From: Ailanthus altissimus | Lineage: Eukaryota > Streptophyta > Magnoliopsida > Sapindales > Simaroubaceae | NCBI GenBank assembly: GCA_946807835.1 | Contig: OX327697.1 | Coordinates: 17,370,001 to 17,434,000, forward strand | DNA length: 64,000 nucleotides | Reading direction: 5' to 3' | Part shown: piece after piece, positions 3,280 to 64,000 of the stretch | Layout of the letters: every line of letters starts with the position of its first letter | How positions within the stretch are numbered: the stretch's first letter is position 1 | Position numbers and translations under genes: made by a program | Notes under the pieces: model-generated | Seen by the model: the letters and a program-made list of their open reading frames with translations, nothing else | Databases searched by the model: none | What the model was told of the DNA's origin: nothing

Positions 3280-3600
3280 TTTACTCCGGTCACACACTGT
3301 AGTGATTTAGGCCTTTGTAAACCCAATAAGTCGACAACTCTTGTCAATTGCATCTCATGCAACTTTTACTACTGATCTTAAATACACCTTATCCACACAC
3401 TGTAGCAATCTAGGGTAAGTGTATTCCAGATTAACTTGTCAATTATCAAATATATGTTACTGATACTACCCGCACACTATAGCAATCTAAGGTAATACGT
3501 TCGCATATATTTGTCTTATCTTATGTTTAATCAGCATAAGCCAAATCACACCAACCAAATCCCTCACACGTAGCAATCTTGGGAAAAAACCTACGTGACC
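3280..3600 (-). promoter_or_regulatory. Four-hairpin leader module of element C
   Basis: Four copies of a roughly 20-nt motif lie at about 3290-3311, 3393-3413, 3471-3492 and 3563-3583, spaced 103, 78 and 92 bases. On the plus strand they read as CACACTGTAGCAATCTA and close variants. Each is flanked by complementary arms, for example TTTAC...GTAAA with GGTC...GGCC at the first and AATACAC...GTGTATT at the second. The spacing matches the modules of E and B2. The module lies in the untranslated leader between the primer site and gag. Its function is not known; a structured RNA is inferred. Confidence 0.7.
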
Positions 3601-5904: not shown

Positions 5905-7908
5905 TGTTAACGTATTTTAGGGTGTATGTATGTGATTATATACATGTTAAAAAAACTAAATACATGTATCATAAATACAATTTTGCAGTGAAATTAAGCA
6001 TATGATCAACATATACACATGTAACTTATATCATTAACAACAAAAGCTAACAAGAAACATACCCTTGAAGAACTTCGGTGACGATTTTAATTTTGGATTC
6101 CTCCTAACTCCAAGCTTGAGCTCACCTTGAAGTGCACTATTGTACAATTCTAGTTCACAACAATCTGTTGGGATTGAAAAGTTAGAATAACAGCAACTGA
6201 ATTTTCACTAACAAGATTTTGTTTCCTAAAAAATAAATAATAATAAGAATTGATTTTTCTTTCTCTCTAGTTTTTCTCACTACCTTTTGTTCAAAGAAAA
6301 ACTCTCCAAAACCAATAACTCTCTCCAATGCTCTCTCATCGCACGATTTTGCTTCACCCTTTATTAATTAATTATTCAATTCAACTTTTAGATGTGTTAA
6401 ACACGTCACAAGTGCTCTCAAAATTGATTAAGTAGCCAAAACACTAAAAAACAAAAAGTTTTGTGGCTATTATACCTAATTAGGTATATGTCTCCCACCT
6501 AAACAAAAATAATAAACAACTAAATAAATATAATTATTTATTTAAATAATATTTATTCAATTATTCAAAAACTATTTGAATAAATAATTTTTTTTACCTT
6601 ATTTGATTTTACTAACATAATTAATTGGTGAATTCATGGAACAAAATTGTGCCACTTGTCATTATTTAATTAGTTAACAACTCTTACCAAATAATTAAAT
6701 AATGTACTTAACATTTAAGTCTAGACAAGTGCACAACCTAAGGAGACTCTCTAGGTCCACGCTTGAATTGTCATATGGAACTCCTCCATACATTAGTGAA
6801 CTAAGTCACAGATACAAGTTATGGATATTATAAAGCGGCGCGTTAAACTATATAAGTTGAGATTATAATATATTCGTATAATCCTTCCATCATTTATATC
6901 CGGGTAGAGCGGAGATATAAATCAACACAGTCAAATCTCTATATGCCTAACCGAAAGCTTATCTCTAGAATTGTATTTTAATAAATAATATTCCCAAATA
7001 CTTTTGTGAATTATTTATCCCTAGGGTTAAACTCTTTTCTCGAGAATTACTGCTTATGGCCATAAGACTTTTTGAAATACAATCTTAGAGCATTATGATA
7101 TATTACTCACCAAAATGAGCTGATGGATCCCATATCTATGCACATCAATCTCCATAAGCATTGGACTATACTTAGCAACACCTAGTGGTACGACTATAAA
7201 AGGCTTCTGACATGTGTGGATCCAAATTATGGCGGATCACTCACAAGCCCACTGTGGCACTCAAGTCAAAGGACCACGAATACTACTCAGCTCGAAAGAC
7301 CCTCTATTAACAGCTTTATGGGATGTTTATTGAAGGTCTTTCTGAGTCTGTTCAATATTCAGTGCTTACTAAATACCTACATCTCTATACGAGCTTTCAC
7401 TAAACTCATGATCTGTTAAGACTAACCATCTGGACCATTCAGATATAAACATACACCGATCTATATATTTATTAAGGTATTACTGACAGACTAGCATCAG
7501 TGAAGATAAATGAGGAACATAATATTTGAGAACATATTTACATAATGACATTTTCTAGCACTATTTACAACACTTTGCAACAACGTCATTACTAATATAT
7601 TATCAGGTCTTTATCCTATTTTAGACAAGGCTCTAACTCTTTATACATAGTTGACTCTTATAACCTGATAACGTTTATCAGTGCCAACTCTTAACATTTA
7701 TAACTCTCAGTGTTGCTAATTCTTAGCACTGATCTAAACTTCTTTAGACCAGATCTGAACTCTTTCAGATCATACAATGTCTGAAACGTTACAAGCATCT
7801 TACCATATATAAAATATAATTAGCAATTTAATGAAATGGTAATGCTAGTATAAATATTAAATAAATATTTATACATAAAAGGTTGACATGTAAGTACAAA
7901 TCTCAACA
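5905..7908 (-). repeat. 3' LTR of B1 (about 2.0 kb)
   Basis: The plus strand begins TGTTAACGTATTTTAGGG and ends AAATCTCAACA, i.e. TG...CA. Both edges match the other B1 LTR (12896 and 17872) and, in reverse orientation, the B2 LTR at 60148. It contains the conserved TTGCAGTGAAATTAA segment, a counterpart of the CAGCGGAA run of the other LTRs, near its U5 end. The open frame at 7216-7419 is LTR sequence without protein similarity. Confidence 0.85.
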
Positions 7909-7919
7909 TCTCCACTTGC
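7909..7919 (-). other. Polypurine tract of B1
   Basis: The minus strand reads GCAAGTGGAGA immediately before the LTR start TGTTGAGATTTG. A purine-rich run at this place is the plus-strand primer of LTR retrotransposons. Confidence 0.65.
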
Positions 7920-9480
7920 TATAGTGTCATTCACAATGGTATCAAATGCCTATTGGCTCCATATTTTTTCAAATATTATTTGAGTTAAGGCTTTAGTAAG
8001 TGGGTCTGCTACATATATAAGAGTCTACTCTACTAACTATTACATCTCTTCTAGCCAAGATTCCTCTAATGATATAGTATTTTCTTTCCATATACTTAGA
8101 TTTTAAGTAGGCTCTCGGCTCTGTAGCTTGTATAATGGCTCCGTTGTTGTCACAAAATAATGGTATAGGATCTATTGCACTTTGAATTATTCTAAGTTCA
8201 ACGATAAATTTACATATTCACACAACTTCTTTTATTGCTTCTAAAGCTGTAATATATTCTGCCTCTGGTATAGAATCAGCTATGGACGACTGTTTATTGC
8301 TCTTCTAACTAACTTTAGCACCGTTGAGAATGAATACATACCCAGATGTAGGCTTTCTTTCATCTAGATCAGACTGAAAGTCTGAATCTGTGTATCCTCT
8401 CACTTGTAAGTCACTTTCTCTATATATCAGAAACTTGTCCTTAGTACCTTTAAGATATTCAAGGACATATTTCACAACTATTCAATGGCTTTCGCCTAGA
8501 TCAGACTGATACCTGCTTGTAACACTTATAGCTATACTGATGTCAGGTCTCATGCACATCATGGCATACATCAAGCTTCCTACAGCTTATGCATATGGTA
8601 TGTTAGACATTCTAACCTTTTTATTTTCACTTTAAGGGCACATCTTCCTTGAAAGATAAACACCATATCTAAAAGGTATATTAACTATCTTACAGTTGTT
8701 GAAATTATACCTTTCTAAGACATTATCTATGTACGATGATTGAGATAGTCTTATAAGCCTCCTAGCTCTATCTCTATAAAGTTTATACCCATTATATAGG
8801 AGCCTCTCCTAAATCCTTCATGAAAAAATTCTTATTAAGGTAGCTTTTAACTGACTGTAATATACCAATATCATTTTCTATAATGAGTATGTTATCCACA
8901 TAAAGACCCAAAAAGACTACCATGCTCTCACTGCTCTTTATATACACACATGATTCTTCTTTGTTCTAGATGAAACCATACCCTCTAAATTACTTTATCA
9001 AAATGAAGATTCCAACTTTCAGAATTCTGCTTAAGTCCATAAATAAACTTATTTAGTTTGCATACTAAACTAAAAGTTTGGCCAGATGTAAAGTTTTAGG
9101 TTGTTCTATACAGATCTCTTCTTCAAGATATCTATTTAAGAATTTCATTTTTACATTTATTTGTTAAATTTCATAGTCATAATAGGCAACAATTACCAAT
9201 AAAATTTAAATTGACTTAAGCATCGCTACTAGTAAGAAGGTTTCCCTATAATCGATCCCAGATCGCTAAGTATAACCTTTTGCCACCAGATGGGCCTTGA
9301 AAGTCTTTACTTTTCCATCAGGCCTATGATTCTGCTTGTATATCTATTTATAACCGATATGAACAATTTCTTCAAGAAGCTCAACTAAGTCCCAGACTTG
9401 ATTTTGATGTATTAAGTCAATCTCAGATTTTATGGTCTTTTGCTATTTTCCTGAATGATGTCCAACATCGCCTCTTTATA
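7920..9480 (-). pseudogene. B1 reverse transcriptase and RNase H remnant
   Basis: On the minus strand 8040-7920 gives a VADPLTKAL-like end of pol. About 8200-8050 gives DPIPLFCDNNGAI followed by KSKYMERKYYIIR, the copia RNase H core with its catalytic Asp and the family KHI-like motif decayed. At 8905-8891 the reverse transcriptase active-site box reads LYVDNIL instead of YVDD. The second catalytic Asp is therefore lost. Numerous stops and shifts are present, so no product is expected. It lies directly upstream of the polypurine tract, as expected for copia. Confidence 0.75.
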
Positions 9481-10787
9481 AGTCAAAGGATCATTTTCTT
9501 CAATCAAGAAAACACCAAGAGCACCTTTAGGTATTGAAACATACTTATCAAGTGACCTTGATATCCTTTCTGACCTACCTGAAGGGTATGTCAAAGGTAT
9601 TCTGATCAATCTTTCAACAATCTCTACGATCCATGAGAAACTGTTTCCCTAGAAAATGGCATTTTGAGCAACGAATATATTTCATTCCTCAAGATCATAG
9701 AACTGGTAACCCATTAAATTCTTAGGATATCAAATGAATCAATACTTTAAGACTTAATTTCCTTTCATTCTATATCTTATAAGGAGTAGAAGGAATAGCT
9801 TTCGATGAAACTCTGTTTAGTATATGAGCAGCAGTTTCTAGAGTATAGCCCCATAGATATTCAGGGAGATTGGTGACGTTCATCATCGATTAGACCATAT
9901 CCAATAAAGTTTGATTTTTCATCTCTGAAACACCATTGTGTTGTGAAGTACTTGGAGGACTATACTGAGTGAGAATCCCATTCTCTTTTGAATAATCTAA
10001 AAATTCACTGCTCATGTATTCACCACCTCAATCTGATCAAAGGCATTTGATATACATTTCGGTTTGTTTCTCTACTTCAATTTAAAACTCTTTGAACTTT
10101 TCAAGAGTTTCTAACTTGTGTTTTATAAGAAACATATATCCAAATTGTGATAGATCATCGATAAAGATAATGAAATATCAAAAGCCACCTATTGCAATGT
10201 GTTTCATTGGACCACATACATCACTATGTACAAGTTTCAATAAATCAGTGGCACAGTGTCCAATAATAATAAATGGAGATTTGGTCATTTTTCTTTAAAT
10301 ACAAGATTTACAAACTAGATAAGACTCTATGGTCAGATTAGGTATTTGACCATCTTTAACCAGACGGGTTAGGCATTTCACATCTATATGACCTAATTTC
10401 ATATGCCACAATTTTATATCATTTAACGTTTTCGAGTTATTATCAACATTCACTTGTACATTCATGACATTTCCTACTGCATCTAATATATAATGGCCAT
10501 CAATCAACTGACATTTAACTAATAAAATATTATCCAAATTATACAAACATAAGGAATGGTTCTGTATATACATATGATATCCTCCAGATGTCCAATACAG
10601 GAATGAAATTAATTTGCCGAATAATATCTGGCATATAATAACAATTATTCAATACACCAATTTTATTATATGGAAGAAGTAAATTAAAACATCCAATAAC
10701 CTCGACCTGTAGGAAATCTCCATTTCCAACACAAAGTTGTACTTCTCTAGGTTGTAACAGTCTAACTTCCTTTAGGCCCTGCAACAC
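9481..10787 (-). pseudogene. B1 integrase, GAG-pre-integrase and protease-side remnant
   Basis: At 10573-10295 the minus strand is open and reads DIKLWHMKLGHIDVKCLTRLVKDG, ending LVCKSCI; the HxxxH...CxxC pattern is the GAG-pre-integrase zinc motif. At about 10070-10000 the integrase core segment GGEYMSSEF is readable after two substituted positions. The stretch 10787-10539 (VQLCVGNGDFLQVEVIGCFNLLLP) corresponds to the region between protease and pre-integrase. The plus-strand open frame at 10092-10298 is antisense. Frames are broken in several places. Confidence 0.75.
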
Positions 10788-11722
10788 ATTGTAGATATGA
10801 GAACGACAAGTAGTATCTAATACCTAGCCAATACTAGCATCAAATGCTAAAGAAATGTCAATGATATGCAATTGCATACCTAAGGGGGTTTTCTTAATCG
10901 TGACAAAGTATTTTGGGCAGTTTCACTTTCAATGCCCATCTTTGCTGTAAGAGAAATATTTTCCGTTTACTTTATTCTTATGTTGGGGTCTGGACATGTA
11001 TTTTTTTTAGGACCCATTTTGGGTGCATACTTTACTTTCTTTTTATTCTTCCCTTTGAACTTCTTTGAATTCCTCGAAACAAAAGATGAAGCACCATAAA
11101 CATAGAAGGTCATGCCCCATTTGCTCATGTCCTCTTGAGCTGTTTTCAGCATGTTATGCAGATAAACATAAGTAGGGGTTAATCCTTACATGTTAAAGTT
11201 TATGATGAATTATGTAAATAAGCTTAGAAGTGATTGAAGAATCAAACTGTTCCTCAATGTATTGCTCAGTGAGTTATCCATTGTTTCTAACCTCTCAATA
11301 TCAGATATAATCTTGAGGACATAGGGACTCACTGGACTGGCATCGGGTAGTCTAGCTTGAAAGAGAGATTTGACAACCCTGTATATTTCAACTTGAGGCC
11401 AGTCACTAAATATCTCTTTCAGGTGAAGCATTATACTCTCGGCATTGTCCATGTGGACATGCTGTCTTTGGAGCTCCATAGACATTGAGCCGAGAATGTA
11501 CGATTTGACTTTCAAATCGTCATCCAACCATTTTCGATATGTCTCATTTTCTTTTAGAGAAACATCATCAGAAACAGCTTGGGGTAGACGCTGATCAATT
11601 ATATATCCAAGCTACTTAGAATCTAAAACTATTCTGAGATTTATAAGCCATTCAGCATAATTTTCTGCATCTTTGAGTTGGTATGCATCAAGGATATGAC
11701 CTAATAAGTTGCTTGAAGCCAT
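10788..11722 (-). pseudogene. B1 gag with degenerate zinc knuckle
   Basis: The ATG at 11722 (MASSNLLGHI) matches the gag starts of B2 and C. The best segment, 11527-11210, reads MDDDLKVKSYILGSMSMELQ and continues through VVKSLFQARLPDASPVSPYVL, almost identical to the B2 gag at 63540-63860. Near 10950-10905 the CCHC knuckle is recognisable only by GH and NCPKYF; the first cysteines and the residues around His are replaced by Ser and stops. The 11152-10967 segment (YVYGASSFVSRNSKKFKGKN) is the basic linker before the knuckle. Confidence 0.75.
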
Positions 11723-11929
11723 TTGATTTTAACAAGACAGAAGAAACGATGTTAGTGAAAATTTTCAATTGCTAATAAATAACGTTTTAGATCATGTGTA
11801 TAACAGTTATAAATCTTTTAATCTAAAAATGTCATCCCACTGTTTTACATAATCCCTTTAATCTCTCAAACACGAAAATGATAGTTTTAGATTCTTTAAA
11901 TTATATAGTGAGAAGTGGATCCCGTTGGC

Positions 11930-12045
11930 ATTTTACTTTAGCCTCATAATGTAGCAATATTGGCCTTTGTAAACTCAAAAGGTATACAACTCTTATCAAT
12001 CACCCCGACCAATCTCTCAAGCTGTAGCAATATTAGAAAAGACCG
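11930..12045 (-). promoter_or_regulatory. Reduced two-hairpin leader module of B1
   Basis: Only two motif copies remain, at 11942-11963 and 12015-12036 (plus strand: CTCATAATGTAGCAATATT and CTCAAGCTGTAGCAATATT). The first keeps its flanking arms TTTAC...GTAAA and GCC...GGC. Compared with E and C, about 200 bases holding the two middle hairpins are missing between them. Confidence 0.6.
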
Positions 12046-12519
12046 AAGTAAATTGTCTAATACCGCATTGACAAGACGGATCGTTATATAATATTATGTC
12101 ATAATATAATATTATTTAATCTGATTTAAGCGATTTTTTTAAATTTAATATATATATTTATATATTAATAATTATTATAATTATTATTACCATTAACAAT
12201 TATAATAAACTTTCGCATCTCATATGAATCTAATTTATAATTAGAATATTTATTTAAGCAAGAACAACTAAACCCCACCAATAAGGCTCCCATTGTGATT
12301 AATAAACATAAACAAATATATATATATACAACATTTAATACAATGATATAACAATTATAATTATATTAAATGAACCTGACATGTAAAATTTTTTAATTGG
12401 AGTGTATTGTTCAGAATGATTAGCGTTAAAAGTTGAACGTTATAGCATTATACAATATAATGCTCCAAAAAACTTTTTTTACTCTTTTTTTGTTTTCAAC
12501 CTTAAGCAGCTTGGGTTTC

Positions 12520-12775
12520 TGACTTATGAACGCCCCCATGTTCATCATTAAGAACACCCCGACGTTCAACACTTGAACACCTCAATGTTCTGCTCTTTTA
12601 ATACCCCTATGCTAAACACCTTAACGCCCTAGCGTTATCACAAATAACGCTCCAGCGTTATATAATGAATGCCCTAGCGTTCATCAACAAATGCCCCTGT
12701 GTTCACTAGTAAACTCTGCGGCGTTCATGTTAACATATGAACGCCCCAGTGTTCGGTGTTACCACTGCGGGGTCG
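12520..12775. repeat. GC-rich imperfect tandem block in the B1 leader
   Basis: Units such as GAACGCCCCAGTGTTC, GAACACCTCAATGTTC and AACGCTCCAGCGTTA repeat about ten times at 20 to 30 base intervals. Each is a near-perfect inverted repeat around a C-rich centre. The position, just inside the primer site, equals that of the blocks in C, E and B2. Confidence 0.7.
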
Positions 12776-12881
12776 TTTTTATAGAGCAATTTTTCTACAC
12801 TTCAAGATATAATTTTTACTATTTTTAGGCATTCCAAACTCGTCATATAGCACTCCAACAACCTAAAAATACAATAAACTT

Positions 12882-12893
12882 GCTCTAATACCA
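12882..12893 (-). other. Primer binding site of B1
   Basis: The minus strand reads TGGTATTAGAGC two bases after the LTR end, matching the initiator Met tRNA primer site with one transition. Confidence 0.85.
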
Positions 12894-13020
12894 CTTGTGA
12901 AAGTGTTTTAGGGTGTATGCATGTAATTTTGTACCAATTAAAAAAATTAAATACATGTATCATATACACAATTTCGCAGCGGAATTAAACATATGATCAA
13001 CATATACATATGTAACTTAT

Positions 13021-15232
13021 TGTTGGGAGTTGTCCATTCATGGGTGTATGCATGTGGATTTTGTGTTTAACAATAATATATACATATCTCATACATATAA
13101 TGAAGCAGCGGAAGCTTAAAACATTGCAGTAAACACAATCAAAACATATTAATTGAATTAACAGAAATGAAATTGAGGAATAACCTTTGAAGCCTTTGGA
13201 TGGAGATTGTTGAAGTCCACCAAAATGTTATCTTTGATCAATTCTAGTAATTAACAATGGTGGGTTTGATTATCTAGAATGACAGCCTTTGATCCAGCAG
13301 AAGTTTAACCACTTAAACTTATGATATTAATTTTTCCTTTTTGATTAACAATTAATCAAAACCTATTTTGCTAAATTGGTTTTATGCCTTAAAAGAAAAT
13401 AATGAATTCAACTCTTGAATCCATATTTTAGAAAACAATTTCTCTTTGAATTGGCTGACTAAAATTTGCAAAATCAAATTAACAAAAAGACTTATGAATT
13501 TAATTTACATTTGTCTTATTTATACAAATGAAATTAATTTCATTTCATTACAATTAATTTCACTTAATTTCAATTTGTATTTAACCTAACCTAATCTTAG
13601 TTAACTCTTAACTTTAGTTAAGTTAAATTAACATTTAAATATTCTAACTATAGTTAACACTTAACTTTAGTTAAGTTAAAGAACATTTAAATATTTTAAC
13701 TATAGTTAACACTTAACTTTAGTTAAGTTAAAGAATATTTAAATATTTTAACCATAATTAACTAACTTAATCATGGTTATGTTGACTTTTACTTAACCAT
13801 CAAGTATTGTTAATCTAATTTAACTAAATAGTTAACTCTTAACCTTAGTTAAACATAAATTATTTATTCAACAATTAAATAAATAAATATTTATTAGAAT
13901 TATTTAACAATTAAATAATTATTAAGTGAAATTATAATTATGTCCTTACTCGGTTACTAAGTTAACCTAAAGTGGGTCCCACCATTTGACTATATACTTT
14001 AGTTAACGTAATCTTAGTAAATTACTGGATTTTACTGTATTGAACTATTCAATACGGTACGCTGCCCAAGTGCTCAAAGAGTACATTTCATATTGGGACT
14101 CTCTAGGTCCACGCCCGATTTGTCAAATGGAACTATTTCACAAGTCCGTGAACGATGCCCCACGCACACGTTACGGATATTACAAATTAGCGCGTTAGAC
14201 CATACATGTTGAGGTTACTCTATATTCGTATAATCCTTCTGTCATTATATCCAGGATGAACGGGATACAGATCATTACCGTCAAATCCCGATAATTTCAT
14301 CCATTACTATATTATCTCCATATTCGTATCTTATGAACAATATACGCAAACACTTTTGCTATAATGTTCGAACCTGTAGGAAACTCCTTTTCCAGGTAGA
14401 TTGCTTACGGCCATAAGACTTTACAAGATACAATCTCAAAGTTCAGATATACAACCCATTTATGTGAGCTGGCGGATTCCATATCTACGCACACCGAACT
14501 CCATGAGCATCGGATCATACCCAGCGACACGTAGCGGTCAAACCATGAAAGGTTTCTGACATACGTGGAACCAAAGTATGATGGATCTCCCACAAGTTCA
14601 CCGTGGCGCTCAGGTTGTAGGACCACAAATACTACTCAACTCGAGAGGACCTTCCTTTGACGGTTTCATAGGATATCTATTGGGGTCCTCTTGAGTCTGT
14701 TCAGTATCCAGTCCTAACTAAATACCTGTATGTCTATATGAATTTCAACCAAGCTCATGGTTAACTAAGAATAACCATCTGTACAATACAACTATAGACA
14801 TACACTAATCTATGTGTATCACTGATAGACCCACATTGGTGAACGTAGATCAGGAACTCTTTATTTGAGAAGATACTTCCATAATGACATTTCTTAGTGT
14901 GTATTACAACTTATTGCAACTTTGTCATTACTAGTAGATTCTCAGGTCTTTGTTACATTATAGATTAGGTTCTAACTTTTTAGATCTCGCTGGCTATTAT
15001 AACCTGCTAACACTTAGCATTTATAACTATCAGCTTTGCTAACTCTTAGCCATGGTCTAAACTTCTTTAAACCAGATATGAACTCATTTAGATCATATCA
15101 TGTTTATAATGTTACAAGCTTAATTACCATTTAATAAAAGTTATCAGCGATTTAATAAAATATGCATTGTATAAATATTACAAACTAAATATTAATACAA
15201 ACTGGGATGGCGCGTAAGCACATACCCTAACA
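13021..15232 (-). mobile_element. Solo LTR A (2212 bp) with 5-bp target duplication
   Basis: It begins TGTTGGGAGTTG and ends CATACCCTAACA. The 5-mer CTTAT at 13016-13020 is repeated exactly at 15233-15237. Removing 13021-15237 restores the B1 LTR, as shown by the continuous copy at 6020-6035. Homology to element E shows that it is minus-oriented. A TATA box on the minus strand (TATAAATAAG, about 13515-13524) and a CAGCGGAA motif near 13107 lie where the equivalent parts of E do. It presumably arose by recombination between the two LTRs of a full element. Confidence 0.9.
13600..13757. repeat. Three tandem copies of a 52-53 bp unit in the U3 of LTR A
   Basis: Copies start at 13600, 13653 and 13705 with GTTAACWCTTAACTTTAG and continue through TTAAGTTAAA and ATTTAAATATT. 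The block lies upstream of the TATA box in element orientation. Each unit holds a near-perfect inverted repeat of TTAACT/AGTTAA. Confidence 0.8.
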
Positions 15233-16815
15233 CTTATATCATTAAGAACATAAGATGACAAAAAATATACCCTTGAAGAACTTTGGTGAAGATTTTAATT
15301 TTGAATTCTTCTTAACTCTAATCTTGAGCTCATCTTGAAGTGCACTATTGTACAATTCTAGTTCACAACAATCCATTGGGATTATGAAATTAGAATAGCA
15401 GCAACTGAATTTTCAGCAACAAGATTTTGGTTTTTGAAAGAAAATTAATAATTAGAATTGATTTTTCTTTCACTTTAATTTTTCTCACAACCCTTTATTC
15501 AAAGAAAAACTCTCCGAAACTAAAATCGTTTTCCAATGCTCCCTCCTTGCACATTTTTGCTTCACTCTTTGTTAATCAATTATTCAATTCAATTTTTAGG
15601 TGTGTTAAGCACTTCACAAGTGCTCATAAATTTGATTAAGTGGTTAAAAAATTAAAAAACAAGATTTGGTAGCTATTATACCTAATTTAGTATATGTCTC
15701 CCACCTAAACTAAAATAATAAACAACTTAATAAATATTATTATTTATTTAAATAACATTTATTTAATTATTCAAAAACTATTTAAATATTTAATATTTTT
15801 TTAACCTTATTTGATTTTACTAATATGGTTAATGGGTGAATTCAGGGTGAAACAATTTATGGAACAAAATTGTGCCACTTGTCAATATTTAATTAGTTAA
15901 CAATTCTTGGCAACTAATTAAATGATGTACTTAACATTTAAGTTTAGACAAGTGCACAACTTGAGGAACCATGAAATAAATTTTTAGTTTGTTGGAATTT
16001 ATGGGATGGAATTGTTCAATCTATAATGTTGCCCCAATGCACAACGAGTATACTTCATATTGTAAGACTCTCTAGGTTCACACCCGAATTATCATATGAA
16101 ACTCCTCCATACGTCTGTGAACAATATCCCACACACACATTACGAATATTACAAAGTAGTGCATTAGACTATACAAGTTGAGGTTATAACATATTCGTAT
16201 AATCCCTTAATCATTTATATTCAGCTAGAGTGGAGATATAGATCAATATCGTCAAATCTCTATATGCCTAATCGAAAGCTTATCTCTAGAATTGTATTTC
16301 AATAAATAATATTTTCAAACTTTTTTGTGATATTATTTTTCCCTAGGGTTAAACTATTTTCCCAGGAATTACTGATTATAGCCATAAGACTTTTTGAAAT
16401 ACAATCTTAAAGCATTATGATATATTACTCACCCAAATAAGTTGATAGATCTTATATCTACGTATACCAGACTCTATGAGCATCGGACCATACCCAATAA
16501 CACCTAGCGGTCAAACTATGAAAGGTTTCTGACATGTGTCAAACCAAAGTATAGTGGATCACTCACAAACCCACCATGACACTTAGGTCAAAGGACTATA
16601 AATACTACTCAACTCGAAAGACCCTCTATTGATGACTTTATTGGATGTCTATTGGAGATTTTTGTGAGTCTGTTCAGTATTTAGTTCTTACTAAATACCT
16701 GTATCTCTGTACGAGCTTTCACTAAATGTATGGTCTATTAAAACTAACCATCCAGACCATTGAGATATAGACATACACCAATCTATATATTTATTAAGGT
16801 ATTCACTGATAGACC

Positions 16816-17754
16816 ATGTCCTATCTTTAGACTTGTATCTCATTGAATAATATGTGCAAACTCCTTTGCCATATTGTTCCATCTTGGCGGAAGTCTTTCT
16901 CGAGATTAATACTTGTGGCCACAAGACTTTCTAAGATACAGTCTCGAAGCATCTGGATATCAACTCCCTATGCGACCCGATGGATCCTATATCTATATAC
17001 ACCAGACTTCATAAGCATCAGACCATACCTAGTGACACCCAGCGATCATACTATAAAAGATTTATGACATGTGTAGAACCAAAGTATGTTGGATCACTTA
17101 CAAGCCTACCATGGCACTCAGGTCAAAGAATCACGTATACTACTCAACTCGAGAGAACCCTCCGTTGATGGCTTATATAGGGTGTTTATCAGAGGCCCTC
17201 GTGAGTCTATCCCATATCCAGTCCTAACTAGATACCTAATTGTCAATATGAGCTCCAAGCTCACAGTCGGCTAGGAATGACCATCTATACCCTATAGGCA
17301 CCATATATTCTGATCTATATATAAAGGTATCCACTGACAGACCCGCATCAATAAAAATAGATTAAGGACAATTATTTGAGAACATACTTGCGCAACTAAC
17401 ATTTCCTAGCACCTGATTGTAACTCTTGTAACTATGTAGTTACTAGTATATTCTCAGGTTTATGTCCCATTATAAACAAGGCTCCAACTTTTGGATCTTC
17501 GCTGAGTATTATAACCAGCTAACACTTAGCTGTGCTAGCTTTTAACATTTATATATCTTAACGTGGCTAACTATGAGCCCTTATCTAAACTCCTTTAGAT
17601 TTGATCTGAACTCCATCAAATTATATAATGTCTATAACGTTACATTACATAATACCATATAAATAGGTATTAGCAATTTAATAAGAATGCACATTTGTAT
17701 AAATACACAAGTATATGTACATTCAAGGATGGCACGTAAGCACCAGCCCTAACA
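16816..17754 (-). repeat. Fragment of an A-type LTR replacing part of the B1 LTR
   Basis: At about 16815 the B1 LTR sequence jumps to a stretch ending GCACCAGCCCTAACA at 17754, which is the outer end of an A/E-type LTR. At 17755 the B sequence resumes (CAAGCATCTTACC). About 300 bases of B sequence are missing at the junction, so this is a truncated insertion or a recombination product. No clean target duplication is visible. Confidence 0.6.
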
Positions 17755-17872
17755 CAAGCATCTTACCATATATAAAATATAATTAGCGATTTAATGAAAT
17801 GATAATACTAGTATAAATATTTAAAAAAATATTCATACATAAAGGGATAGTACGTAAGCACAAATCTCAACA

Positions 17873-18292
17873 ATTCGTACCTAGTCCTTACTAAATATCT
17901 ATATACCTATATGAGCTTCAAGTTAATAGTCAGGAGGAACAACTATGTGTTTCCTACAGATATAAACATACACTGACTATATAAAAGGGATTTACCGATA
18001 GACCTGCATCGATGAAATAGATCAGAAACACTATATTTAAGAACATACTTGTATAATGACATTTTCTAGCACTTTATTGCAACTTTTGTAACTATGTCAT
18101 TCTTAGTATATCCTCAATCTTTGTCTCATTGCAGACAAAGTTCCAACTCCTTAGATTTTACTGATTCTTATAACCTACTAACTTTTAGCAGTTATAATTT
18201 TCGGTGCTGCTAACTCTTAACTCTGATCTAAACTCTTTTAGATCAGATTGAACTCCTTTAGATTATATCTCAACTCTTTTAAATTATACAAT
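17873..18292 (-). repeat. Outer part of the element C LTR
   Basis: The sequence continues directly from 5904 (…CTGTTCG then TACCTAGTCC, as in the homologous LTRs near 14697 and 17218). It ends abruptly at about 18292, where homology to the other LTRs stops and LINE sequence starts. Confidence 0.7.
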
Positions 18293-29137: not shown

Positions 29138-29888
29138 ACATGTGTCTGAAATGTTACAAGTATCTTACCATGTGTGGAACACCAGATGACGTAGGTAACC
29201 CCAGGTTTTTGACATGTGTGGAACCAAAGTATAGTAGATCACTCACAAGCCCACCATGGCACTCAGGTCAAAGGATTACGAATACTATTCAACTCAGAAG
29301 ACCTTCCATTGATGGCTTTATAAGATGTCTATTGGAGGTCTTCGTAAGTCTGTTCCATACCCAGTCCTTACTAAATACCTATATCTCTGTACAAGTTTCT
29401 ACTAAGCTCATGGTTTGTTAACATTAACCATTTGGACCATACAGATACAGACATACACCAATTTATATTATTGAATTTCACCGATAAACTTACATCGATA
29501 AAATTAGATTAGGAACATTATGTTTGAGAATATACTTGCATAATAATACTTTCTACCACCATCTGCAACTCTTTGTAGCTACATCATTACTAATATATTC
29601 TCAGGTCTTTATCCCATTTCAGATAATGCTCTAACTCCTTAGATGTCACTAACTCTTATAATCTGCTAACTCTTAACACTTATAACTTTTAGTATTGCTA
29701 ACTCTTAACACTGATCTAAACTTCTTATATATAAACTCTCTCAGATCATACAATTTTTAAAACGTTACAAGCATCTTAGCATTTAATAATTAATAATATT
29801 AACAATTTTATTAAAAATGTTAATTGTATAAATATTATCATTAAATATTTATACATAATGAAATGTCACATAAGCACAAATCTCAACA
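29138..29888 (-). repeat. B-type LTR fragment inserted in element G
   Basis: From about 29196 to 29888 it matches the B1 3' LTR at 7203-7908, including the end AAGCACAAATCTCAACA. The first 60 bases are a scramble of later and earlier LTR segments (CTGAAATGTTACAAG next to TGACATGTGTGG). The outer half of the LTR is absent. The 97-codon frame at 29128-29421 is LTR sequence without protein similarity. Confidence 0.7.
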
Positions 29889-30430
29889 TTGTGGAAGGCC
29901 TTGGAGAATAAATATATGAAGAAAAGTAATGACAACTAGTTGTATCTATTGAAGAGATTGTTTCGTCTTCAGTTGAGACCAGGTACGAGTATCAGTTCTT
30001 ATATTGATGAGTTTAATAAGTTAATTGTTGATTTATTAAACTTAGAGAAAACATTCAAAGATGAAATAAAGGTATGTTATTGATTGGTTCTCTTCCAGAT
30101 GAACTAGATCATTTATGTATTACTCTCATCCATGAAAATGATAAATTGTCATTTGAAAAAGCTTGTTCTTCTTTAACAAACTATGAAATCCGTAGAAAGG
30201 ATCAGAGAGAACATAAAGATGAGTAAGTATATAAGTCGAGGGGTAGAGTAGGAAAAGATAAATATGCATTTTGTTGTGAGAAATGGCATTGGAAGAAAAG
30301 TTGTCCAAGGTTGAAAAGAAAAAGAAAATAAATGTCTATTTTTTATGCACGTGTTGTTGAGAGTGTAAGTGATGATAGTGTGTCAAATTTTTATTTAAGT
30401 GGTCATTAATCCATATTTTGTTCTGACGAA
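29889..30430 (+). pseudogene. Element G gag with altered zinc knuckle
   Basis: The sequence opens inside gag: LWKALENKYMKKS, then RLQLRPGTSISSYIDEFNKL, a UBN2-type capsid domain. At about 30265-30310 the CCHC knuckle reads YAFCCEKWHWKKSC; the first Cys of the CxxC pair has become Tyr. Several stops break the frame. The N-terminal 70 to 80 residues are missing because of the LTR fragment upstream. Confidence 0.75.
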
Positions 30431-34305: not shown

Positions 34306-35571
34306 TATTGGAATGGCACGTGAGTATCAGCTCCAAATTTAAATGACTACCAAAATTGTAAAATCTAAAAACCTAGAAATTATGAGTTTTGAATTTCATT
34401 TCCCTTTATATACTAATGCATAAATTTCAAACTAATTTGAATTTCATTTGTATTTAATTTAACTTAACCTAACCATAGTTAACATTTAACCTTAGTTAAG
34501 TTAGTTTAACTTAACCCTTAGTTAATAAATATTTAAATATTCTACCATAGTTAACTAACTTAACCATGGTTAGGTTAACCTTTACTTAACCATTATGTAA
34601 GGTTAACTTAACTTAACCATATGGTTAACCTTTAACTATAGTTAAATTAAATCATTTATTTAATAATTAAATAAATTAATATTTATTTTAATTATTTAAC
34701 AATTAAATAATCATAAAGTGAAATTACATTTATAACCTTACTAGGTTACCAAGTTAACCTAAAGTAGGTCCCACCATTTAACCATATACTTTAGTTAACT
34801 TAACCTTAGGTATTTGCTGAATTATACTGCATTGAACCATTCAATACGATGAATTGACAAAGTGCTCAAAGAGTACATTTCATATTGGAACTCTCTAGGT
34901 CTACACTCGATTTGTCAAATAGAACTATTCCATGAATCCGTAATCGATGCCCCACGCACACGTTACGAATATTACAAATCAACATATTAGACCATACAAG
35001 TTGAGGTCATAACGTATACATATAATCCTTCCATCATTCATACCCTGGATGTGCGGGGATATAGATCAGCACTGTCAAATCTCTATTTGCTCATCTTTAA
35101 ACTTATCTCTAGATTCCTATCTCGATAAACAATATATGCAAACACTTTTGCTATATTGTTTAACCCTGTGGAAAACTCTTTTTTCGGGTTTATGCTTGTG
35201 GCCACAAGACTTTATGAAATACAATCTCGGAGCATCGGATATTCAACTTACCTACGTAAGCTGACGGATCCCGTATCTACACACACCAGACTCCATGAGC
35301 ATCGGACCATACCCAACGACATATAGCAATTAGACCATGAAAGGTCTCTGACATATGTGGAACCAAAGCATGATGGATCACTCACAAGACCACTTTGGTG
35401 CTCAAGTTAAAGGACCACGAATACTACTCAACTCGAGAGAACCTTTCTTTGACGGTTTCATAGGGTATCTATTAGGGTCCTCGATGCTTTATTTGAAATG
35501 TTTATTGTATAAATATTAAACAATTAATATTCATACAATATTAGAATGGCACGTGAGCACCAGCTCCAACA
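34306..35571 (-). repeat. 3' LTR of element E, R-U5 part deleted
   Basis: The first 35 bases (TATTGGAATGGCACGTGAG and the following TATCAGCTCC) equal the U3 terminus seen again at 35540-35571. The sequence then jumps to GACTACCAAAATTG and runs through the U3 to GAGCACCAGCTCCAACA at 35571. A minus-strand TATA box (TATATAAAGG) lies at 34403-34412. A dense series of GTTAAC/TTAACC units occupies 34450-34800, as in LTRs A and C. Confidence 0.75.
34403..34412 (-). promoter_or_regulatory. TATA box of the element E LTR
   Basis: The minus strand reads TATATAAAGG. Transcription would begin about 30 to 40 bases further left, near 34370-34380, which marks the start of the R region. Confidence 0.6.
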
Positions 35572-39504: not shown

Positions 39505-39830
39505 TTTACTCTAGCCTCACGCTAAAGCAATATTGGCCTTTATAAATTCAACAGGTAGGCGACTCTTGTCAATTGCATCTCATACAACTTTTACTACTGA
39601 TTCTAAATACACCTTATCCTCACGCTAAAGCAATATTGTGTAAGTGTATTTCAGATTAACTCATCAATAGTCAAATATATGTTACTGACATTATCCTCAC
39701 GCTAAAGAAATATTGGATAATATGTTCGCATATATTTGACTCATCTCATGTTTTACCAATATTAGATCAAGTCACACTGACCAAATCTCTTACACTAAAG
39801 CAATATTGGAAAAGACCATAGTGACCCGTC
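39505..39830 (-). promoter_or_regulatory. Four-hairpin leader module of element E
   Basis: Motif copies lie at 39515-39536, 39618-39639, 39695-39716 and 39788-39809, spaced 103, 77 and 93. On the plus strand each reads TCACGCTAAAGCAATATT or a close variant. Flanking arms are complementary: ATTATCC/GGATAAT at the third copy, AAATACAC/GTGTATTT at the second, GCC/GGC with TTTA at the first, and a longer-range GTCAC/GTGAC pair at the fourth. The module sits between the primer site and gag. Confidence 0.75.
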
Positions 39831-41733: not shown

Positions 41734-42890
41734 ATAACATCTCTTCTTTCCCTCACAATATCCATACCCAATATTCTCTTCGCTGCTCCTAAATCCTTCA
41801 TCTAAAATTTGCCACTTAATTGCTTCTTGAGCTTCTATATTTCTTCTATATTCTTAGATGCGATCAATATATCATTGACGTATAGAAGCAAATACATCAT
41901 CCCACAAGTTATGTCCTTCAAGTACATACATCCGTCATACTTGCTCTTACTAAAACCATAAGCCATCATAAACTCATCAAATCTCCTATACCACTGTCTA
42001 AGTAATTGCTTTAACCCATATAATGACTTCTTTAGCAAACAAGCATGATCTTCTTTTTCGAACTCCTCAAACCTTTGTGGCTGTGTTATGTATATCGTCT
42101 CTTCAAGCCATTCATGCAAAAAAGATTTCTTTACATCCATCTGTTCTAGATGTAAATCAATGTTAGCACATATGGCTAACAAAATCCTAATAGATGTATG
42201 CTTGACAACTGGAGAGAATATCTCATGAAAGTTAACTCCCTTTCTTTGAGTAAAACCTTGTACAACTAACCTAGTTTTGAATCTTGTAGGCTCTATTCCA
42301 AGTATCCCCTCCTTCACCTTATACACCCACTTGCACCCAACTAGTTTCTTTTGAGGTCTCTCTACCAAGCTCTAAGTATTATTCTTCCTAAGATAACTAA
42401 TCTTTTTTTTCATGGCCTGTTGCCACTCTTTCTTGTTTTCACTCTTTATAGCCTCACCATATATCCTAGGCTCATCATACTTAAGAGTGTAAGCAGAATT
42501 AAAAGCATGAGCAACTAAATCTGCTTGTGCATACTTAACTGGTGGGTTAATCGTTCTCCTTAGCCTGTTTCTAGCTAGCTGGTACTCTTTAAGTTCCATC
42601 TCAAGAGTCTTAATCTTTCTTTGGGTGGACTTAGAGGAACTCGCTGGTGTTTTTAGTTCTTCTTCAAAGATCTCCTTATTGAAGTGCTGATTTGGGGGCA
42701 TATTAGATCTATTCTCAGGTTCTACTTCAACTTTTATTGACTCATGTGCTGAGTCTTCCTTGTGCATAGATTCTTTTTTCTCATCTTTTTGGGAGATTTT
42801 CAGCATCGTCGTCTCAACGAACGTCACATTATGGCTCATGATACTCCTTGGTGGTGTCAAATCTTTACACCATACCTTGTATCCTTTCAC
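41734..42890 (-). pseudogene. D2 reverse transcriptase (5' part) and hinge
   Basis: Frame 42368-41835 reads ERPQKKLVGCKWVYKVKEG, then RFKTRLVVQGFTQRKGVNFHE, LEQMDVKKSFLHEWLEE, LLKKSLYGLKQ and the active-site box YVNDILIAS. The usual YVDD is changed to YVND. Further on, to 41750, another frame gives MKDLGAAKRILGMDIV. The upstream frame 42890-42372 is the poorly conserved linker between integrase and reverse transcriptase. The domain is cut by element E and resumes at 34305. Confidence 0.85.
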
Positions 42891-60147: not shown

Positions 60148-61924
60148 TGTTGGGATTTGTGCTTACGTGCCATCCCTTTAGTGTATAAATATTTGCTTTA
60201 TGTTTATACAATTATGATTTCTATAAATCACTAATTATATTATATAAAAATATGATAAGATGCTTGTAACGTTTTAGACATTATATAATCTGAAAGAGTT
60301 CAGATCTGATCTCTAAAGGAGTTTAGATCAGAATTAAGAGTTAGTAAAATCTAAAGAGTTAGAGCCTTGTCTGAAATGGGACAAAGACCTAAGAAAATAT
60401 TAGTAATGACATAGTTGCAATGAGTTGTAAATGGTGCTAGAAAATGTTGTTACACAAATATGTTCTTAAATTTAATGTTCCTGATCTATCTTCACTGATG
60501 CGGGTCTGTTAGTGAAGACCTTAATGTATATAGATCAGTGTATGTGTATATCTGGATAGTCCAGATGGTTAGTCTTACTAGACCATGAGTTTAGTGGAAA
60601 CTCGTATAGAGATACAAGTATTCAGTAAGGACTGAATATTGAACAGACTCACAAAGATCTCCAATAGACATCCCATATCTGTAATATGTGTGTGGGACAT
60701 TGTTCACAGACGTGTGAAATAGTTTCATATGAAAAATCGGGCATGGACCTAGAGAGTCTCACAATATGAAGTGTACTCGTTGTGCATTAGGACAGCGAAT
60801 TGGATTGAACAATTGATCTAACAATTTCCAGCAAAATGAAAAATGTTTCAATGTTCCTTTTATTATTCACTTGTCAATAATTGAATGTAAAATACATTAT
60901 TGGTTTACAAGAGTTGTTAACCAATAAGAAATTGACAAGTGACATAATCTTGCTCCATAAATAATTTATCATGTATTTACCTATTTACCTTACTTGGTAA
61001 ATACATATATGGTAAATGTAAATATTCAAAATAGTTTTGAATTATTAATATTTTATATATTAATCAAATTATTATTATTAATTGGAATAAGTGGCAAACA
61101 CCATTTACTAATGGAGAATGCACTTGTTATTAATAATAAAAAATGTTGGCCACTTAGAAATTCTTAAATGATGCACTATGGAAGTGGTGAGACCACTTAG
61201 TATTGTTTAAATGCCATTTACTCTCTAGAAATTGATTCAAATGGTTGAATCAATTTGTTGAGTGAAAAATATGATTGATTAATGTTTGTAATGGCAAGCA
61301 TGGATAAGTGGTGGTGGAGCACTAAGAGAAGTAATCATTATTTGCATTTAATTAAGAATTGAAAGAGTTCAATTTGTGTATGAGAAGAGAGAATTTCGTT
61401 CTAGGAGAGAATTGAGAGCATTTTCTAGGTGTTTTTCTCAAAGTGTTGAGAGAAAATGCAAAGGCTTACTAAGGTTCAACATAAAGAGTTGTAAAGAACT
61501 AATGAAAACACTTAATTCTTCTCATCTCTTGGTAGTAATCATTCATAAGGACAAATTATTTTAAGTGTTAAAACAATCCTTTACTGGAAATTCAAGGCTG
61601 CCATTCTAGCTTTATAATCCCACCGAATTTAGTTGTGAACTAGAATTGTGCAAGGAAACACTTTAAGGTGAGCTCAATAAACTGAAGATTGGAGTTCTTG
61701 AAAAATTGTAAAGCTACCTTCATAACTGGATAGGTTATTTATTTACAATTCATTTTATATCATGCATGAAAATATATATGAGATATATATGTGCTTGAAT
61801 GATCATACATGTGATTATATGCTTAAGTTTGTTACATAGTGTATAACATGTATGAATACTTCCGTTGGGCTTTTAATTTTTGAAATTATATGTATCTATA
61901 CACATCACATACCATATCACAACA
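60148..61924 (+). repeat. 5' LTR of B2 (1777 bp)
   Basis: It begins TGTTGGGATTTGTGCTTACG and ends ATACCATATCACAACA, two bases before the primer site. The start matches the reverse complement of the B1 LTR end at 17872 and 7908. The 62-codon frame at 61376-61564 has no known domain. Confidence 0.85.
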
Positions 61925-61926
61925 AG

Positions 61927-61937
61927 TGGTATCAGAG
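61927..61937 (+). other. Primer binding site of B2
   Basis: TGGTATCAGAG, fully canonical for initiator Met tRNA at these positions. Confidence 0.88.
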
Positions 61938-62189
61938 TATGCTGATATGGTGTTTGATGTTTGATGTTGAGATGTTGTTGTTTTTAACATGTTGATGTTA
62001 TATTGATGAACAACATGATGATGTTTGATTTCAAGCATGTTGATGTGTAGAATTAAACATGTTGTTATTTTGTGAATTCTTAAACATGTTGATGTTTATA
62101 ATTGTTCATATGATATTTGATCATGTTTTATATCGGATAATTTGGGTGCCGGAATAGAAGAAAATTGATTTTCGTGCACCGGGCACAGT

Positions 62190-62525
62190 AACAGTGTCCA
62201 ACGCCGAGGTGTTGGATTATGGTCGCTGCCGCGCCAGCCCATTTTTGGCCAATACCGCGGCGACAGGTTGTAAGCGCTGCGGCGCCCACATACTGGAAAC
62301 CAGCGCCGAAGCGCTGGATTATAGGCGCTGCAGTACCAGCCCATTTTTTGGCCAGTGCTGCGGCGACAGGTTGTGAGCGATGCGGCGCCCACATACTGGA
62401 AACTAGCACTGAGGCACTGGGTTATGGGCGCTGCGGCTCTAGCCCGTATTGTGGCCAGCGCCGCGGCTCCCAGACTATTTTTTATGAACGCTACAGCCCC
62501 CATTTTCAGCGCTACAGCGTTCGAC
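62190..62525. repeat. GC-rich tandem repeat of 102-103 bp in the B2 leader
   Basis: The word GCGCTGGATTAT and its variants end at 62220, 62322 and 62425, giving a period of 102 to 103 bases and about 2.7 copies; the unit also includes CCAGCCCATTTTTGGCCA, GCGGCGACAGGTTGT and GCGGCGCCCACATACTGGAA. Sub-units are hairpin-like, e.g. CAGCGCCGAAGCGCTG. The overlapping open frames of up to 143 codons on both strands come from this low-stop composition and are not genes. Confidence 0.85.
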
Positions 62526-62814
62526 ACTGTTACAAAATAATTTTTTATTTATTCATTTATTATGTTTTGAATTGTTTTGTTGCTGTAATGTACTTCAATA
62601 ATTGTCATAACATGATGTGATCATTCAAATACGTTGATAATCACAATAGGAGCCCTATTTGTGGGGTTAGTTATGATTACGTATTTTTTTAAAATGATCT
62701 ATATTATTCATTTGGATGAAATGAGTATGTTATTAATAAATCTCTCTTAATCAGATTGAAATATTTTTATTATGAGATAATATGAAATATGATCCATCTT
62801 GTCAATACCGTATT

Positions 62815-63150
62815 AGGCGATTCTCTTTGGTCTTTCCCAATATTGCTAAAGTGTGAGGGATTGATCAGGTTGTTTCGGGCTATGTTGGTTAAACATGAGA
62901 TATGACAAATATATGTGAACGTATTGCCCAATATTGCTAAAGCGTGAGGGTTATACTGGTAGCATATATTTGCTGATTGACAAGTTAATCTGGAATACAC
63001 TTATCCAATATTGCTATAGCGTGAGGATGAAGTGTATTTAGGATCAATGTTAAGAGTTGCATGAAATGCAATTGACAAAAGTTGTCTACCTTTTAGGGTT
63101 TACCAAGGTCAATATTGCTATAGCATGAGGCTGAAGTAAATGCCAATGGG
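62815..63150 (+). promoter_or_regulatory. Four-hairpin leader module of B2
   Basis: Motif copies at 62837-62858, 62928-62949, 63005-63026 and 63109-63130 (spacing 91, 77, 104) share the loop AATATTGCTAWAGCRTGA. Each is enclosed by its own complementary arms: TCCC/GGGA with GGTC/GATC; GTATTGCCC/GGGTTATAC; AATACACTTATCC/GGATGAAGTGTATT; and TTTAC plus GGTC with GGCT plus GTAAA. The same order of stems occurs in E and C. The module ends about 220 bases before gag. A structured RNA with four equal loops is inferred; its role is unknown. Confidence 0.8.
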
Positions 63151-63349
63151 ATCCACTTCTCACTATATAGTTTAAAGATTTTTGAACTATCGTTTTCCCG
63201 TTTGAGAGATTAAAGGGATTACGTAAAATAGTGGGAGGGCGTTTTTAGATTAAAAATTGTATACCTGTTATACCCATGATCTAAAACGTTATTTATTAGT
63301 GATTGAAATATTCCGCTGACATCTTTTTCTTTTGTCTTGTGAAGATCAA

Positions 63350-64000
63350 ATGGCTTCAAACAACAATCTAGCTCGCATCCTTGATGCGCACCAACTAAAA
63401 GGTGCAGAAAATTATGCTGATTGGCTTATGAATCTCAGAATAGTTCTAAATTGTGATAAGCTTGGATATGTAATTGATCAGCGTATGCCAAAAGCTGTTT
63501 CTGATGATGCTTCTCCAGAAGAAAAGGAGACATATCAGAAATGGTTGGATGACGATTTGAAAGTCAAATCGTACATTCTTAGGTCAATGTCTACGAAGCT
63601 CCAAAGGGAGCATGTCCACATAGACAGTGCTAGGAGTATCATGCTCCACCTAAAAGAGTTATTTGGTGACTAACCTCAATTTAAAATTTATAAGGTTGCC
63701 AAATCTCTCTTTCAAGCTAGACTACCCGAAGGCAGTCCAGTAAGTCCTCATGTCCTCAAAATGATATCATATATTGAGAGGTTAGAAACCATAGATCTCT
63801 TACTGAGCAATGGATTGGGGAAGAGCTTGATTCTCCAATCACTTCCAGGGTCATTTGCACCGTTCATAATGAACTACAATATGCAAGAATTGACTCTTAC
63901 TTATGCTGAGCTGCATAACATTCTGAAAATAGCTCAGGAGGACATGAACAAAGGGGGCACGGTCCTCTATGTTTAGGGTACTTCATCATTTACCCGAAGG
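63350..64000 (+). pseudogene. B2 gag, runs off the window
   Basis: The start is the ATG at 63350 (MASNNNLARILDAHQLKGAE), equal to the starts in B1 and C. An upstream in-frame ATG at 63332 exists but is not conserved. The sequence continues NYADWLMNLRIVLNCDKLGY, the DUF4219/UBN2-like start. A TAA at about 63671 interrupts the frame where B1 has a Trp codon; then VAKSLFQARLPEGSPVSPHV and ISYIERLETIDLLLS follow. A TAG at about 63974 is the second break. Gag would package the element RNA. Confidence 0.85.

Follow-up and report, generated by a model that had tools for sequence, protein, structure and literature searches.

The window, by which we mean the whole 64,000-nt stretch of DNA analyzed, contains the 5' part of a retroelement, here called B2, in which a primer-binding site is followed by a copia-type gag, the order required of a plant Ty1/copia LTR retrotransposon. 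The primer-binding site (TGGTATCAGAGT; 61927..61938, plus strand) has one mismatch to TGGTATCAGAGC, which we take to be the usual initiator-Met site, and the gag open reading frame (ATGGCTTCAA...; 63350..63673, plus strand) is stopped after 107 amino acids. This first gag piece gave no Pfam match, but a similar piece of a relative in the window, E12 (11213-11611), matched Retrotran_gag_2 (Pfam, 6.7e-8). No relatives of the gag pieces were found in a protein database or in viral contigs, and one piece compared with solved structures had no match. B2 leaves the window before pol; in E12, gag_pre-integrs scored above and Pol_BBD below the cut-off, and an RVT_2 match at 41835-42368 falls outside the downstream side of a further relative, E39, and seems to belong to another element.

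An earlier note, made from the letters of this DNA alone, had described four 18-nt loops on different stems between primer site and gag, and this anatomy was borne out. The loops begin at 62839, 62930, 63007 and 63111, the first of them 912 nt downstream of the primer-binding site and 511 nt upstream of the gag ATG at 63350, and all follow the consensus AATATTGCTNNAGYRTGA; C-G pairs close each loop, beyond which every hairpin continues in a complementary stem of its own. Hairpin 1 (62826..62869, plus strand; loop 62839-62856, AATATTGCTAAAGTGTGA, one mismatch to the pattern the note had given) was identified by pattern matches, the covariance model and arm-swap energies, its own arm (-14.3) outperforming all 10 arms of other positions. 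Hairpin 2 (62906..62972, plus; loop 62930-62947, AATATTGCTAAAGCGTGA) has a two-tier stem marked by lineage-level compensations, hairpin 3 (62993..63039, plus; loop 63007-63024, AATATTGCTATAGCGTGA) was supported by the same three lines of evidence as hairpin 1, and so was hairpin 4 (63099..63140, plus; loop 63111-63128, AATATTGCTATAGCATGA), which carries a 3x3 internal loop. The loop centers were as described, with GCTATAGC in copies 3 and 4 and GCTAAAGC in copy 2. A possible degenerate fifth unit, hp1b, lies at 62880..62897 (plus strand; 5 mismatches); it was not listed by covariance model R1, and its E39 counterpart, which still reads AATATTGGTAAAACATGA, reached only E=1.1.

Fold predictions depict the whole leader as structured, with a possible closing helix of UCUUGUCAAU and either of two AUUGACAAG copies. 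In B2, RNAalifold placed the 5' strand of such a helix, around part of the array, at 62797..62806 (TCTTGTCAAT, plus strand), and the four-leader fold placed a 3' strand at 63071..63080 (ATTGACAAAA, plus strand); the RNAalifold partner of TCTTGTCAAT was the later ATTGACAAG copy when four leaders were used and the earlier copy with 41 leaders. A long pairing was also predicted for B2 between array and gag (63238-63290, GCGTTTTTAGATT with GATCTAAAACG). A further predicted hairpin, around AGCCCTA...GGGGTT, precedes the array in 4/4 leaders (approximately 62650-62670, and approximately 40010, 12290 and 3780 on the minus strand). Further upstream in the B2 leader, positions 62198-62467 hold a second, GC-rich repeat array of two units of approximately 102 nt that are 81.5% identical and rich in self-complementary CCAGCGC...GCGCTGG stretches; comparable GC-richer segments occur upstream in E39, E12 and E3.

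Beyond the leader already noted, and the possible fifth unit near 62880, the window proved to hold three more leaders with the array, all on the minus strand. The E39 leader (39517..39807) has four units, all with center TT (loops 39790-39807, 39697-39714, 39620-39637 and 39517-39534), and the E3 leader (3292..3580) has four of a TAGATT..GTGTGC lineage (loops 3564-3580, of 17 nt, 3472-3489, 3395-3412 and 3292-3309). The E12 leader (11944..12034) retains only hairpins 1 and 4 (loops 12017-12034 and 11944-11961, center AC), the stretch between them being deleted; one ATTGACAAG copy, the later closing-helix partner, is left there as ATTGATAAG. The window thus has 14 units in four leaders. A covariance model built from them and run over the whole window with filters off returned those 14 at E<=1.2e-5, with every other match at 0.4 or above; as the units match by construction, the informative part is the gap to the remaining matches. 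The loop pattern itself, allowing <=3 mismatches, matched 11 times in the window against 0.51 expected, a count reached in 0/100 shuffles. A blind detector that knew only that loops should be the same, arms unrelated and stems of at least 5 pairs reported two pairs in the 64 kb, both belonging to the array module, with one of them read from the opposite strand; three block-shuffled controls gave no pair.

The motif is abundant in the 939-Mb genome, with 12,069 matches at <=1 mismatch versus 3 for the reversed pattern. For quantitative analysis we used two samples. The first was found by the loop, and hence is biased to conserved loops; the matches listed, all on contig C1, amounted to 61 loci, and statistics were computed on 54 of these plus the window, the last 7 being left out. 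The covariance model finds 202 units at E<0.05 in the 54 loci and 26 in the other 7. Exactly four units were present in 42/54 loci, with spacings of mostly 91-93, 77 and 102-104 nt. The second sample was blind to the loop: a pattern for the 5' arm of hairpin 2 (AAATATATGYGAACRTATTR) gave 3127 matches versus 4 in the control, 70 of the matches listed (contigs C1-C3) were taken, and their loop slots were placed by aligning them to references in which the loops were masked; 15/70 leaders are also in sample 1. Of 267 slots located, 262 were exactly 18 nt long, with four slots in 60/70 leaders, three in 7 and two in 3. The canonical loop has 16 fixed sites, and 263/267 slots lay within 4 mismatches of them, 139 being perfect; the remaining 4 had 5-8 mismatches, three of them through deletion. 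Removal of near-duplicates left 44 leaders and 158 units. In viral contigs the pattern had 2 exact matches (L001 and L002), which, judged by their surroundings, look like chance and were rejected.

We next asked how well the stems are maintained. In the window, 12/14 units pair better with their own 3' arm than with any arm of another position (mean -11.0 vs -4.3 kcal/mol), and in the loop-blind set the own 3' arm beats those of the leader's other units in 132/148 units (mean -11.7 vs -4.0). The 14-unit alignment has 91.1% of cells paired, compared with 76.9% after shuffling and <=51% when slid. For 41 complete leaders of approximately 430 nt, the share of paired cells over 130 predicted pairs is 92.3%, far above slid controls (35-45%) but hardly above column shuffles (91.9%), because most columns vary little.

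Covariation over many copies, on which the earlier note had wished its structural reading to be judged, gave a divided answer. On the favorable side is a modest excess of double changes in the 41 leaders (71 cells vs a shuffle mean of 54.6, with 2/300 shuffles as high), together with differences between lineages: pair 3 of hairpin 2, C-G in most lineages, has become U-A in 5/6 leaders of the TT clade (the sixth U-G), pair 9 of the same hairpin is G-C, G-U or A-U by clade, hairpin 3 pair 14 is G-U, G-C or A-U by clade, and hairpin 2 pair 16-17 (n=50) is U-A in 43, A-U in 5 and U-G in 2. The unfavorable side comprises the near-equality with column shuffles and the hand-placed stem pairs, 1/41 of which reached p<0.01 vs 1/139 unpaired controls. 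For the 14 units the covariation score (0.537 vs 0.248, above all 500 shuffles) counts units at different positions as variation, and pairs with two-sided change did not exceed shuffles (4 vs 3.1; 169/500). Of the 88 pairs in the four-leader fold, 11 show two-sided change, and the covariation term of this fold is small (-1.19). Some mismatches are fixed, namely U.U at hairpin 2 pair 5 (9/11 AC1 and both B2-type leaders) and C.A at hairpin 3 pair 3 (5/6 TT and 8/16 AC2 leaders), and many stem changes are C-to-T or G-to-A, as the decay of dead copies gives, which blurs the pairs. Clear compensatory differences exist at the lineage level, while statistical covariation in the stems is weak.

The stems also bear on two simpler accounts of the repeat. 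Recent duplication of whole hairpins was rejected since the arms of different units are unrelated (identity approximately 0.33 between units, compared with 0.72-0.75 at one position; sample 1). A repeat of 20 nt downstream of an LTR could alternatively bind a DNA-binding protein, making the array a DNA-level motif such as a transcription-factor or chromatin site, but each copy is flanked by its own complementary arms, some with compensatory changes, and within every one of the 54 sample-1 loci the units share a strand, an arrangement a DNA site would not need. We consider this explanation highly improbable.

The loops are more conserved than the arms. In the loop-blind set, transversion distance between leaders was 0.040 for the loops (16 sites, center left out) against 0.113 for the 3' arms and 0.119 for the 5' arms, i.e. 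loops have approximately one third of the transversions of arms. At A/T loop sites the letter was kept in 1536/1580 cells, versus 1766/2063 for 3'-arm columns with an A/T majority. At G/C loop sites 160/183 changes were transitions, as methyl-C decay gives, and we place no structural weight on them. Together with the own-arm pairing, these distances uphold the earlier suggestion of selection on RNA structure, in the form of a constraint on both pairing and loop sequence.

Pair counts further indicate that the tip most likely folds on itself, through an inner pair 3-18 and a short stem of 6-8 with 13-15 capped by a U-N-N-A tetraloop. Pair 3-18 is U-A in 148/158 canonical loops, and the sampled table for sites 3 and 18 lists T-A 150, T-C 3, G-A 11 and G-C 16, although other single pairings within the loop also reach high percentages. 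An alternative inner register (2-16, 3-15, 4-14, 5-13, 6-12) was rejected: it left 84.0% of cells paired vs 91.1% for the register kept, and 7/14 cells of its 4-14 pair mismatch.

The central dinucleotide varies by lineage, the main classes being AC, TT and AA, and an AT center looks like the C-to-T product of AC. Within the window, loops at different positions of one element are more alike (identity 0.875) than loops at the same position of different elements (0.755) or unrelated loops (0.755), with 5/20000 label permutations as extreme, while the arms show the opposite trend (0.77/0.73 at one position, 0.32-0.39 otherwise). The centers behave likewise in both samples: concordance of center class (AC or AT, TT, AA) was 0.888 within vs 0.53 between leaders in sample 1 and 0.833 vs 0.386 in sample 2 (0/5000 permutations each), where the permutations ignore the kinship of leaders and the concerted switches number about four. 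Outside the center, canonical loops of sample 2 are equally alike within (0.850) and between leaders (0.846), so the concerted signal in canonical loops resides in the center alone. On a midpoint-rooted tree of 41 leaders with the loops masked, the TT leaders come together in a single clade (0.968), the all-AA leaders fall into one group of weak support (0.635) and the AC leaders are placed elsewhere; several loops thus appear to have changed on single branches. A few leaders are mixed: B2 and L023 have centers AA, AA, AT and AT, and L003, L039 and L048 each have a single odd loop. Another leader, L098, has TT, AT, TT and AC and is a possible recombinant or intermediate.

The earlier note had proposed that palindromic loops could mediate kissing-loop dimerization of genomic RNA. 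In loops 3 and 4 of B2, GCTATAGC does form a palindrome of 8 nt, and the part of a Ty1 study covered here describes dimerization through complementary hairpin loops (PMC5454406). However, the palindrome occurs in just 8/158 loop-blind loops, and in 23/211 loops of the first sample and window; the AC, TT and AA centers are not self-complementary; and the sequence examined around the array in 20 leaders contained no conserved cis complement of the center. An apical loop that is self- or mutually complementary and kept across relatives, as in a DIS-type element, was thus not seen, and the proposal does not stand up well; we give it very little probability.

Small RNAs offer a different reader. 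The tract CC + 18 + GG measures 22 nt, and its variable dinucleotide at 12-13 would face nucleotides 10-11 of a small RNA of that length, so that the tip could be a small-RNA target or, by analogy with decoys, a site whose variable dinucleotide faces the slicing position. A free center should nevertheless drift independently, yet the centers are concordant; a silencing target is not expected to be kept in active elements; and the tip shows inner pairs. We therefore regard a small-RNA site as very improbable.

Gene conversion between units, or recent duplication, could make loops alike without any selected function, and conversion would produce homogeneity within an element and is compatible with the few leaders that carry one odd loop. 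It would, however, have to end at the loop edge every time, the unrelated arms argue against duplication, and the loops are more conserved than the arms. The E3-type lineage is informative here. Its loop is TAGATYGCTNNAGTGTGC, a pattern with 218 exact genome matches vs 1 in the control, and our sample of it comprises 14 leaders and 53 units, 36 of them non-bait. G3 (30/36 non-bait units), U14 (35/36) and, mostly, C6 (28/36) are common to all four loops, whereas other sites separate hairpin 1 from the rest: site 18 is C or U in 23/23 non-bait units of loops 2-4 but A in 12/13 of hairpin 1, and T1 is found in all loops 2 and 3 and 9/14 of hairpin 4 but in no hairpin 1, which keeps A1. This partial change, in which hairpin 1 shares G3 and U14 with the other loops and retains A1 and A18, is evidence against simple whole-loop conversion, and we judge an origin by conversion or duplication alone very improbable. 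In the non-bait loops 2-4 the U-A pair 3-18 is replaced by G-C (16/23) or G-U (4/23), in hairpin 1 it becomes G.A in 10/13, not a standard pair, and the inner stem changes from U6.G15 to C6-G15 and from G7-C14 to G7.U14. AC and AA leaders recur in this lineage, with a center concordance of 0.816 (0/5000).

Because the tips are all alike, are conserved and do not depend on the stems that carry them, they are expected to be read either in trans or by each other, and mutual reading is unlikely since the palindrome is rare, the main centers are not self-complementary and no conserved cis complement was seen in the 20 leaders. Binding of the loops by Gag or a host protein, which the earlier note had offered as its other possibility, is still the best reading. 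We propose, at roughly even confidence, that the B2 leader contains a conserved four-hairpin RNA module that serves as a multivalent recognition element for one trans partner, our best guess being Gag in RNA packaging. Each hairpin presents the same 22-nt tip (CC + 18 nt + GG) on a stem of its own, and all four tips would be bound equally by one trans-acting partner, with a specificity that drifts along with the element. The candidate partner is the element's own Gag, which would engage several sites at once and thereby select and condense its own genomic RNA in the virus-like particle, making the array a putative multivalent packaging signal between primer site and gag. Since the partner appears to change with lineage, an element-encoded protein explains it best, and Gag must recognize the element's RNA; the step to Gag itself is suggested by the position of the array and by Gag in other retroelements. 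A host factor for translation initiation, nuclear export or RNA localization could instead bind the loops, so that the array controls messenger use of the RNA. The anatomy would be the same, fold predictions give the long leader a high degree of structure, and concerted changes fit any single trans partner. A host factor would, however, be common to all lineages, and center switches in separate lineages are less expected than with an element-encoded partner; we rate this as unlikely, at perhaps one chance in a few.

Packaging by Gag would be in keeping with other systems. Retroelement packaging regions lie between primer site and gag, and the array is so placed, conserved and predicted to be structured, as in psi-type signals; in those 12 of 19 leaders examined whose primer site matched with <=1 mismatch, it lies 600-912 nt downstream of that site. 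Retroviral psi signals, e.g. those of MMTV and FIV, are cis-acting, structured and near the 5' end, and are bound by Gag for packaging (PMC8096270, PMC10726167). They belong to other elements, and the parts of these sources covered mention no four-unit set with one tip and unrelated stems, so that the array is set apart from them by description. The TIPIRT domain of Ty1, a region for translation, packaging and initiation of reverse transcription with kissing loops (PMC5454406), resembles the array leader as a structured 5' region of LTR retrotransposon RNA and holds packaging determinants. As far as the covered part of that source describes it, Ty1 combines a pseudoknot, located in its first 326 nt, with two hairpins that carry 7-nt motifs complementary to each other, whereas the array has four equal, non-complementary loops. 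For BARE, a plant copia element, RNA is packaged selectively and the dimerization and packaging signals of BARE2 are conserved (PMC3735527); the covered text, in which the word 'hairpin' occurs 0 times, describes no repeated hairpins or shared loop, and the comparison is one of description only.

Among RNA viruses, packaging signals may be stem-loops with a shared, short loop motif at sites across the genome. The array, in which several hairpins of unrelated stem share a single loop motif, may work like such multi-hairpin signals, as a putative member of that class. Multiple dispersed packaging signals are described for single-stranded RNA viruses in the covered parts of three sources (PMC6281560, PMC3593212, PMC7793301); like the array they are several RNA sites of a common type, and there the coat protein contacts them in assembly. 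The array differs in having all four sites, nearly fixed in spacing and sharing a tip of 18-22 nt, within a single leader, in tips that tend to change in concert, in a partner whose binding is putative, and in its host, a plant LTR retrotransposon. No Rfam family (4227 searched) matched the window at or above its gathering score, the six loop 18-mers as strings were absent from the open-licence literature searched, and titles and abstract starts of open-licence literature on leader hairpins, packaging and dimerization revealed nothing resembling the array. An enod40 paper (PMC10578108), covered in part, was considered and set aside. We suggest, with somewhat less than even confidence, that the tips form a receptor array that switches specificity together as the element's RNA-binding protein diverges, which would be a new, multivalent RNA module in a plant LTR retrotransposon leader.

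If this is true, plant copia elements would possess a defined packaging code in which protein-RNA co-evolution has left a visible record. The means by which plant LTR retrotransposons select their own RNA are poorly mapped, and the array provides a compact candidate with thousands of motif copies in one genome. It allows the question to be tested using short RNAs and a single protein, and constitutes a natural experiment for the co-evolution of an RNA site and its reader. It is in addition a precise marker of this element family.

Subfamilies differ in preservation. In the TT subfamily (L011, L015, L029, L069 and many sample-2 loci) many leaders are nearly identical and have all four loops perfect, so that this subfamily seems to have been amplified most recently; the sampled AC, AA and E3-type leaders are more decayed. 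At one locus, L056, two leader arrays occupy the same strand at a distance of approximately 400 nt; in the stretch examined, the second array shows hairpins 2 and 3 only. The window also carries many copies, at 68-86% identity, of a partly tandem repeat family of approximately 0.2-1.2 kb (5275-18269, 29203-29889, 34458-35483 and 60148-61083).
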